Assembly (NCBI GenBank): GCA_945903275.1
Contig: CAMDNW010000006.1
Coordinates: 1 to 64,000, forward strand
From: Thermoflexus hugenholtzii JAD2
GTDB taxonomy: Bacteria; Chloroflexota; Dehalococcoidia; UBA2979
Length of the DNA: 64,000 nt
Direction of reading: 5' to 3'
The notes under the pieces are model-generated. The model saw nothing but the letters and a program-made list of their open reading frames with translations. It had not been told where the DNA came from and did no database searches. Made by a program: the position numbers and the translations under genes. This document shows positions 55,568 through 58,665 of the stretch, one piece after another (position 1 is the first letter of the stretch; each line of letters starts with the position of its first letter).

Positions 55568-56479
55568 CTACACCCGCACCGCCACATCGAGGCGGTGCTT
55601 CGCCATCTCCGCGCTCACCTTCGCCTGCACGGCTTCCGAGGCCTCAATCATCGGTAGCCGCAGCCCGCCTACGCGAACGCCTGCGTGGTTCAGCGCGAAC
55701 TTCACCGGGATCGGGTTCGTCTCGATGAACAGCACGTCGAACAGTGGCATCAACCGCGCCTCGATCGCCCGCGCGCCTGCGACATCGCCGCGCACGTAGG
55801 TCGCGATCATCTCGCCGATCTGCGCGCCTACGAGGTGGCTCGCGACGGAGACCACGCCCCACCCACCTTGCTCCAGCACGTTCAGCGTGGCGGAGTCGTC
55901 GCCGGACCAGACGCGGAAGCCTTCCGGGGCGGCGTTGGTGATCGCACGCACCTGCTCCATGATGCCGCTGGCTTCCTTGATGCCGACGATGTTCGGTATC
56001 TCACGCGCCAACCGCAGCGTGGTCTCCGCCGTCATGTTGAGCGAGGTGCGCCCGGGAATGTTGTAGAGGATGCACGGCAGCGGGGTCGCCTCGGCCAGCA
56101 CCTTGAAGTGACGGAACAGCCCTTCTTGAGGCGGCTTGTTGTAGTACGGCACCGTGAACATCAGGCCCGTCATCCCAGCGCTGGCGCCCTCGCGCACCAT
56201 CTCCAGCGACTCCGACGTTGAGTTCGTCGAGGCACCCGCGATCAACGTCGCATCCGGCCCGACGGCCTTGCGCACCGTACGCCAGACCTCCACCTGCTCC
56301 TCGATGCTTAATGTCGGTGTCTCGCCTGTCGTCCCCGTGAGCACCAGCCCCTCGGAGCCCGAGGCGAGCAGCGCCCGCGCGAGGTCGCCAATCGCCTCGT
56401 GGTCGAGCGACCCGTCCGCGCTGAATGGGGTCACCATCGCGGTGAGCACACGCCCGAAGTTTGCTTCCTTCGCCATCAC
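55568..56479 (-). CDS. dapA: 4-hydroxy-tetrahydrodipicolinate synthase
   Basis: A 303-residue aldolase that condenses pyruvate with aspartate semialdehyde, the first step toward diaminopimelate and lysine. GRVLTAMVTPF, the GTTGETPTLS pyruvate-binding loop, LYNIPGRTSLN with the catalytic Tyr, and NIVGIKEASG with the Schiff-base Lys are present. AGGAGG lies before the double Met start. It is downstream of asd and the DinB fragment, on the same strand as dapB. Confidence 0.95.
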   Translation of the reverse strand: MMAKEANFGRVLTAMVTPFSADGSLDHEAIGDLARALLASGSEGLVLTGTTGETPTLSIEEQVEVWRTVRKAVGPDATLIAGASTNSTSESLEMVREGASAGMTGLMFTVPYYNKPPQEGLFRHFKVLAEATPLPCILYNIPGRTSLNMTAETTLRLAREIPNIVGIKEASGIMEQVRAITNAAPEGFRVWSGDDSATLNVLEQGGWGVVSVASHLVGAQIGEMIATYVRGDVAGARAIEARLMPLFDVLFIETNPIPVKFALNHAGVRVGGLRLPMIEASEAVQAKVSAEMAKHRLDVAVRV

Positions 56480-56864: not shown

Positions 56865-57887
56865 CTAGAGCCGCCCGCGCTTGATGAGCTCCTCGGCGAT
56901 CTGGATGGCGTTGGTGGCCGCGCCCTTGCGCAGGTTATCCGTGACGCACCAGAACGCGATGCCGTAGTCGGTGGACTCGTCCACCCGCAGCCGGCCCACG
57001 AACGCCCGGTCATCTCCTGCCGTGTTCAGCGGCATCGGGTAAACCGAATTCGCCGGGTCGTCCATCACCACGAGACCGGCCTGCTTCGAGAGTGCCTCGC
57101 GAATCGCGGCCAGCGGCGCTGGGCCGGTGAACTCGACGTGTACCGCCTCGGCGTGCCCGACGATGGTCGGGACGCGTGCGCAGGTTGCCGAGAACTGCAG
57201 GCCGTCCAAGTGCAGAATCTTGCGCGTCTCGTTGCGCATCTTCGCTTCCTCGGCGGTGTAGCCGTCCTCACCAAAGACATCGACCTGCGGCAGCACGTTC
57301 ATCGCGATCTGGTGCGGGTACACCGAGGGCAGCGGGATCGGCTCGCCACGACCGAACGCCGCGAGTTGCGACCGCAACTCCTCAACGGCTGCCGCACCTG
57401 TCCCCGAGGTCGCCTGATACGTCGCGACCGTGACACGACGCAGCGGCGCGACCTGGCGCATCGCATGCAGCGCCATCGCGAGCGGCGTCGTGGTGCAGTT
57501 GGGGATCGAGATGATCCCCTCGTGCCACTCCACGTCCTCACCGTTCACCTCGGGAATCACAAGGGGCACGTTGGCCTGCATCCGGAACGCCGAGCCATCG
57601 TCGATCATCACCGCGCCCTCGCCGATGATGAACGGCGCGTACTGCCTCGATGCCGCCGAAGTCGCCGAACAGAACACAAGGTCAGCGCCCTTCAGCGCAG
57701 CCTCAGTCGTCTCTTCGACCACGATGTCCGCGTCGAGGAAGCGCAGGCGCTTGCCGGCGGAGCGGGCGGTCGCGAGCAGCTTCAGGCTGTTCAGCGGGAA
57801 GTTGCGCTCCTCCGCGACGCGCAGGAACACATCCCCAACTGCACCAGTGGCGCCGATGACGGCTACGTTTGGTCGTGACTTCGGCAT
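56865..57887 (-). CDS. asd: Aspartate-semialdehyde dehydrogenase
   Basis: A 340-residue enzyme making aspartate semialdehyde, the branch point to Thr/Met and Lys. PNVAVIGATGAVGDVFLRVAEERNFP binds NADP; the catalytic Cys is in IISIPNCTTTPLAMAL (about residue 131); GTGAAAVEELRSQL is conserved. ATG 57887 follows GAGGGG, which lies in a hairpin (57892-57943). A Thr/Lys-rich leader reading frame is upstream. dapA is downstream in the same direction. Confidence 0.96.
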   Translation of the reverse strand: MPKSRPNVAVIGATGAVGDVFLRVAEERNFPLNSLKLLATARSAGKRLRFLDADIVVEETTEAALKGADLVFCSATSAASRQYAPFIIGEGAVMIDDGSAFRMQANVPLVIPEVNGEDVEWHEGIISIPNCTTTPLAMALHAMRQVAPLRRVTVATYQATSGTGAAAVEELRSQLAAFGRGEPIPLPSVYPHQIAMNVLPQVDVFGEDGYTAEEAKMRNETRKILHLDGLQFSATCARVPTIVGHAEAVHVEFTGPAPLAAIREALSKQAGLVVMDDPANSVYPMPLNTAGDDRAFVGRLRVDESTDYGIAFWCVTDNLRKGAATNAIQIAEELIKRGRL

Positions 57888-57891
57888 AAAA

Positions 57892-57943
57892 CTGCCCCTC
57901 TCCACCCCCTGCGTATCGAGGCAGGGGGCCTCGGAGCAGGGGC
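57892..57943 (-). promoter_or_regulatory. Hairpin over the asd ribosome binding site (candidate attenuator)
   Basis: Inner stem: CCCCCTGC (57905-57912) with GCAGGGGG (57921-57928). Outer stem: GCCCCTCTCC (57894-57903) with GGAGCAGGGGC (57933-57943), one bulge. On the mRNA the outer stem includes the GGAGAGGGG Shine-Dalgarno of asd and is followed by AGTTTT before ATG. An alternative stem, CGAGG with CCTCG (57917-57934), would exclude the inner one. Confidence 0.65.
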
Positions 57944-57947
57944 GCGG

Positions 57948-58004
57948 CTAGCGCTGCTTCTTGGTGACCTTGCTGGTCTTCGTGGTGAGCGCCTGATTCG
58001 TCAT
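57948..58004 (-). CDS. Thr/Lys-rich leader peptide upstream of asd
   Basis: An 18-codon reading frame, MTNQALTTKTSKVTKKQR, ends 4 bases before the hairpin that covers the asd ribosome binding site. Five Thr and four Lys codons make half of the residues, and these are the end products of the pathway asd feeds. Attenuation by ribosome stalling at Thr or Lys codons is inferred, by analogy with the Thr/Ile-rich thrL leader of enterobacteria. A TATCCT -10 box 9 bases before its ATG suggests leaderless translation. It may also be chance. Confidence 0.6.
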   Translation of the reverse strand: MTNQALTTKTSKVTKKQR

Positions 58005-58013
58005 AGCCGCGTC

Positions 58014-58019
58014 AGGATA
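58014..58019 (-). promoter_or_regulatory. -10 box of the asd leader transcript
   Basis: On the minus strand, TATCCT (58019-58014) ends 9 bases before the leader-peptide ATG at 58004. No good -35 is visible. Confidence 0.4.
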
Positions 58020-58047: not shown

Positions 58048-58665
58048 CTACAAGCTGGCAGGCCGCGACCGCGCGACCGCCATCTCCTCCGCGGTGAACA
58101 GCGAGGCGAACGTCCCGTCCGAGACGAGCGCCTCGACACTCAAGTCGGCCCGCCCAGCAGCGGCCAGTTCACCGATGCCCCCCGCCAGTTCTGGCGTATC
58201 GAGGATCACCCGCGCCGCCCCGACACCCCCGTGGGCCTCGATCAGCCGCGCAAAGTGGCGGGCGTCGTAGTACAGATCGCGCTTCGCGGTGTCGTAGATG
58301 CCGCGCATCCGCTCCTCGAAGCGGGCCGTCAGTTCCGCCTCGGGCGTCTCGGCATCCTCCATCGGCTGACCGAGGCGACGGCGGGCAACGTTCAACTCGC
58401 GCACGCTGAAGAGCTGCGAGTAGGGGTGCTGGAGGACCAAGAACTCGACGGTAAGCGCCTCGCAGCCAGAAGCAACCAGTTCGTTGAACGCCTCGGTCGT
58501 GTTGGTGTTGCGAAGAATCGTCTGCGCGAGCGGGAAGCCATCCCCGGGGCCGAGCGTCGGCTGGTTACGCACCGCGAGGAACGCGGCATTCTGCCTCGCG
58601 GCCTCATACAACACGGCCATGCGCGTATTGAAGCGCTCAACAAGACCGGGATCCGCAGCGGTCAC
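58048..58665 (-). CDS. Hypothetical protein with tandemly duplicated domain
   Basis: A 205-residue soluble, helical protein made of two similar units. Unit 1 (about 10-98) has RFNTRMAVLYEAARQ and LTVEFLVLQHPYSQLFSVRELNVARRRL; unit 2 (about 114-201) has RFEERMRGIYDTAKR and LSVEALVSDGTFASLFTAEEMAVARSRP. Unit 2 also contains YYDARHFARLIEAHGGVGAARVIL, a module I recall as an unnamed C-terminal domain in many bacterial proteins. The function is unknown. GTG 58665 overlaps the dapB stop by 4 bp, so it is coupled to dapB. Confidence 0.75.
   Translation of the reverse strand: MTAADPGLVERFNTRMAVLYEAARQNAAFLAVRNQPTLGPGDGFPLAQTILRNTNTTEAFNELVASGCEALTVEFLVLQHPYSQLFSVRELNVARRRLGQPMEDAETPEAELTARFEERMRGIYDTAKRDLYYDARHFARLIEAHGGVGAARVILDTPELAGGIGELAAAGRADLSVEALVSDGTFASLFTAEEMAVARSRPASL

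Follow-up and report, generated by a model that had tools for sequence, protein, structure and literature searches.

What is the function of the short, threonine- and lysine-rich reading frame that lies immediately in front of asd in this genome? The window (the whole 64,000-nucleotide stretch of DNA analyzed here, from genome G000) carries on its minus strand, in this order, the genes for ribosomal protein S15, polynucleotide phosphorylase, dapB, a 205-aa protein, asd and dapA. The asd gene (56865–57887, minus strand, with its ATG start codon at 57887–57885) encodes aspartate-semialdehyde dehydrogenase (Pfam PF02774 and PF01118), whose product is the common precursor of Lys and Thr. The dapA gene, 3' of asd (55568–56479, minus strand; PF00701), encodes the first lysine-specific step. 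The gene for the 205-aa protein (58048–58665, minus strand) sits between dapB and the leader described below and has no Pfam match. Relatives of this protein with 43–46% identity occupy the equivalent place in both other members of the genus, and no counterpart near asd was found at the remaining family loci. A gap of 160 bases separates the end of this gene (58048) from the asd ATG (57887), and it is in this gap that the putative regulatory element is found.

The leader frame and its conservation

The gap contains the frame MTNQALTTKTSKVTKKQR followed by a stop codon (57948–58004, minus strand). Five of its 18 codons specify Thr and four specify Lys, so that both the coordinates and the counts given in a preliminary description, made from the sequence of the window alone, were correct. 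Most of these residues are clustered in codons 7–16 (TTKTSKVTKK; 57957–57986, minus strand). The two strands of the window contain 414 ATG frames of 14–40 codons, and no other among them reaches 30% Thr plus Lys; five of the 414, this one included, have a TAYNNT box shortly before the start. The box, TATCCT (58014–58019, minus strand), lies 9 nt 5' of the leader ATG and resembles a −10 element; a strict sigma-70 scan found no full promoter. The stop codon of the frame is separated from asd by about 60 GC-rich bases.

The asd gene was located in 92 of 99 related genomes. We read 30 of the asd upstream regions in full, and scanned these and 40 more for Thr/Lys-rich frames. Only four genomes had such a frame: that of the window, those of two further species of its genus (G001 and G002), and one from another genus of the same family (G004); it was missing from the 66 other regions scanned. 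The peptides are MTNQALTTKTSKVTKKQR, MTDFLTTTTKTTKKQR, MRCTPVTTTTSKVTKKQR and MQQTTGHELIANAALRAPQGGTPALVTTTTKKQS in the window, G001, G002 and G004, respectively. Their N-termini have diverged, while the Thr run and the ending T...KKQ(R/S)-stop are kept in all four, and the Thr codons differ synonymously between genomes. The frame is always located directly 5' of asd(-dapA), with dapA following asd in G001, G002 and G004 as well. A TATNNT-type box precedes the frame in every case, at a distance from the ATG of 9, 9, 10 and 9 nt (window, G001, G002 and G004). Because this spacing is conserved, the leader probably has a near-leaderless start, as the preliminary description had suggested from the 9 bases in the window.

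The absence of the frame or of its Thr/Lys richness from relatives had been named in that description as evidence against its proposal. Both features were kept in G001, G002 and G004, but another closely related genus within the family (G005 and G019) retains dapB-asd without the leader. The asd tree is compatible with the two leader-bearing genera forming one branch or not, and fits either a gain of the leader or its loss in the G005/G019 genus. A covariance model of the element recovered the four asd loci with E-values of about 1e-18 to 1e-19 and no other element among 44 family and 393 class genomes; at E 0.001, a search of 400 genomes sampled from the phylum gave the window alone. The weaker matches that it gave among the family and class genomes (E = 0.004–0.09) fell mostly within coding sequence and look like chance. 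Among the genomes searched, the element is confined to two genera. The comparison confirms the original observation and makes it stronger than the sequence of the window alone could show, and it supports the interpretation of the element as a candidate attenuator.

Two alternative folds of the leader RNA

Six segments, denoted A to F in their order 3' of the leader stop codon, account for the pairing in the gap (all on the minus strand). Segment A (GCCCCTGCTCC, 57933–57943) can pair with either F or E, and segment E (GCAGGGGG, 57905–57912) with either C (CCCCCTGC, 57921–57928) or A, whereas B (CGAGG, 57929–57933) and D (CCTCG, 57917–57921) are partners of each other. These five were defined by folding and covariation, and segment F (GGAGAGGGGC, 57894–57903), which carries the Shine–Dalgarno sequence of asd, by sequence and folding. 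In the closed fold, A:F forms the outer and C:E the inner helix; in the open fold, A:E encloses B:D. The two folds are mutually exclusive. The Shine–Dalgarno-like sequence GGAGAGGGG is found in the 3' arm of the outer hairpin, and in all four genomes the Shine–Dalgarno sequence of asd lies in F, where it is paired in one fold, hidden by A, and free in the other. The nested hairpin noted in the preliminary description, with the asd Shine–Dalgarno sequence in its outer arm, is thus present in full. The CGAGG/CCTCG stem, which had been suggested as one that could exclude the inner one, is also present and conserved, but the main competing structure is A:E around B:D, a further pairing that had not been described, rather than B:D by itself.

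Single-sequence folding favored the closed fold in three of the genomes and the open one in the fourth. The z-scores of the folds were −3.0, −4.2 and −3.6 for the three members of the genus and −1.7 for G004. In each of the four genomes, the best structurally distinct alternative was the other fold, with energy gaps of 1.3, 3.8, 1.2 and 2.6 kcal/mol. Some distinct alternative nearby is common in shuffled sequences, but in only 1 of 240 dinucleotide shuffles did an alternative reach the stability of the real one.

All four helices (A:F, C:E, A:E and B:D) are kept in the four genomes, each with at least one compensatory pair change, which bears out the proposal that the stems should co-vary. In B:D, CGAGG/CCTCG is replaced by CGAAGG/CCTTCG. 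The changes in C:E are C-G to T-A and C-G to G-C, that in A:E is C-G to T-A, and those in A:F, for which the pairs were taken by alignment column, are G-C to A-T and C-G to T-A. In G001, the two alternative partners of E, A and C, both carry a change that matches one substitution in E, a pattern that would be difficult to account for if only one of the folds were used. The number of changes behind the covariation is small, since the element is carried by four genomes, three of which belong to one genus.

Ribosome position and the proposed control of asd

How could translation of the leader choose between the two folds? Segment A starts 3–4 nt past the leader stop codon in all four genomes. To model this, an assumed ribosome footprint of 28 nt was masked at different positions along with all of the sequence on its 5' side, and the transcript was folded as far as E. 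With the last Thr, first Lys or last Lys codon in the A site, this assumed footprint led to A:E and B:D in all four genomes. When the A site held the stop codon, C:E was formed in G000, G001 and G002, while G004 gave a mixed structure. However, equilibrium folding of the full leader returned G000 and G001 to the closed fold even when the ribosome was placed on the Thr/Lys codons. Because such folding by itself separates the states poorly, the order in which events occur as the RNA is transcribed must be important, and the open state would have to be kinetic. The dependence on ribosome position is the weakest step in the argument.

We consider it likely that the element is a ribosome-mediated attenuator by which the supply of threonine and lysine would set the translation of asd. 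In the mechanism that we infer, transcription would begin at the leader ATG or within a few bases of it, with the ribosome trailing the polymerase. A shortage of Thr-tRNA or Lys-tRNA would stall the ribosome at the Thr/Lys codons, where its leading edge would stop just before A; A would then pair with E around B:D as these segments emerge, leaving F free and asd open to translation. When Thr and Lys are both plentiful, the ribosome would proceed to the stop codon and cover A, and C would take E. After departure of the ribosome from the stop codon, A would close on F and hide the Shine–Dalgarno sequence. The sensing of Thr and Lys would suit asd, because this gene supplies the precursor of both amino acids and is followed by dapA; the asd-dapA transcript is probably also under the predicted control.

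The preliminary description had noted a TTTT run after the hairpin. This run is present before the asd ATG in the window, but it is missing from all three relatives, and the minus strand of the window yielded no terminator-like site. Considering that the Shine–Dalgarno sequence lies in F, and that there is neither a conserved U-run nor an intrinsic terminator, control probably acts on the translation of asd through sequestration of this sequence, and not on transcription. Transcriptional attenuation, in which the hairpin and the TTTT that follows its outer arm in the window would make up an intrinsic terminator governed by the leader, is quite unlikely given the relatives that lack the T-run and a minus strand devoid of terminator-like sites; in a variant of this reading, termination may be Rho-dependent. 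Nor do we favor direct occlusion of the kind seen in erm-type translational attenuation, where a stalled ribosome would itself cover A and thereby free the Shine–Dalgarno sequence, with A:E and B:D being incidental. The closed A:F helix hides this sequence in all four genomes, and any block of A would release F. However, a ribosome with a normal footprint at the Thr/Lys codons stops just before A, whereas at the stop codon it covers A, the reverse of what direct occlusion needs, and A:E and B:D are both preserved by compensatory changes. Such a mechanism, which we regard as unlikely, fits the geometry less well than pairing of A with E around B:D.

The remaining explanations give the peptide no regulatory role. 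A two-state fold would by itself suit a riboswitch, and the RNA might bind a metabolite or a protein while the short frame is untranslated or non-regulatory. We find this very improbable: the Thr and Lys residues of the frame are kept through synonymous change, there is no conserved aptamer-like domain beyond the six segments, and a search of Rfam up to E = 1 returned no match to Thr_leader (RF00506), the lysine riboswitch or the T-box. The only known RNA families matched were human microRNAs, with scores below the gathering thresholds, and these are chance matches. Frames of such length are plentiful in any window (414 in this one), and one of them could have come to lie beside a GC-rich stem-loop at random. 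With the position, the ending of the peptide and both folds conserved across four genomes, such a coincidence is extremely improbable.

Other leaders in the clade and comparison with known systems

Further short frames were seen in front of other amino acid genes. Frames ending in VLVLT-stop are located about 165–223 nt 5' of ilvB (L199 on contig C14 of G000, L197, L198 and L200), with the ATG 9–10 nt after a −10-like box. Hairpins follow, the second of which is terminator-like in G000. The DNA motif GTACTCGTACTTACNTAGGCG of the ilvB leader occurs once per genome in 20 of the 44 family genomes. Trp-rich short frames, which are candidate Trp leaders, precede a trpE-like gene in G002 (L187), G001 (L189) and G004 (L190), with the peptides GWWRAW, LWRVDWRVCEW and GRWSWHGWCWR; the corresponding frame in the genome of the window (L188) has only one Trp. 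No Thr-rich leader frame was found at hom in the four leader-bearing genomes. Because ilvB and trpE-like leaders occur in the same genomes, this clade would carry several leader-peptide elements, that of asd among them.

The region upstream of asd varies elsewhere in the family. In other genera (L018, L019, L022, L023, L027 and L030), the 100 nt before asd contain another GC-rich hairpin (for example GACGCCGCCCGACCGGGCGGCGTC in L018), located between a −10-like box and the gene, and no Thr/Lys frame; this hairpin is possibly another 5' UTR element. In one genus (L012, L013, L015 and L016), asd itself looks leaderless, with TATGAT, 6 nt and then the ATG in L012.

The best-known leader-peptide attenuators are those of proteobacteria and actinobacteria. 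We lean toward viewing the asd element as a two-input switch on a near-leaderless RNA, in which one peptide would read both Thr and Lys and four RNA pairings would open or hide the asd start, an arrangement not described for asd, in a Chloroflexota lineage that is uncultured. In line with the preliminary description, we found no account of a Thr/Lys attenuator before asd in the literature searched, which left out most subscription papers. If the proposal is true, it adds a target (asd), an amino acid pair (Thr and Lys) and a lineage to the leader-peptide attenuators. The ilvB and trpE leaders alongside that of asd suggest that uncultured Chloroflexota use such control in several amino acid pathways, and reporters could test it without culturing these bacteria.

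Leader-peptide attenuation is already known, including forms that sequester the Shine–Dalgarno sequence (PMC9413887), and the Thr/Lys leader on asd is a predicted new version of it. In actinobacterial leuA leaders, the Leu codons pair with the Shine–Dalgarno sequence, whereas in the survey that described them threonine and lysine operons were not preceded by conserved RNA structures (PMC1262725). The asd element shares with the actinobacterial and proteobacterial amino acid attenuators a leader peptide and competing folds, including the Shine–Dalgarno-sequestering versions, but it has another RNA architecture and belongs to another phylum, and those reports describe none for threonine or lysine operons or for asd. 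The lysine riboswitch (LYS element or L box) also provides lysine-responsive control of the aspartate pathway, partly at translation initiation (PMC12925634), but its aptamer senses free lysine, and it had no match at the asd leader. The Sinorhizobium meliloti trpL transcript starts with the leader-peptide ATG (PMC7298713) and is similar in its leaderless start, but it responds to Trp and its output is transcription termination. The E. coli thrL leader contains Thr and Ile codons and controls thrABC by transcription termination (PMC12925634). Like the proposed asd attenuator, thrL (Thr_leader, RF00506, unmatched here) encodes a short peptide with codons for end products that include Thr, and the position of the ribosome chooses the RNA fold. 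While thrL combines Thr and Ile codons with thrABC and termination, the asd leader would combine Thr and Lys codons with sequestration of the Shine–Dalgarno sequence and a near-leaderless start.
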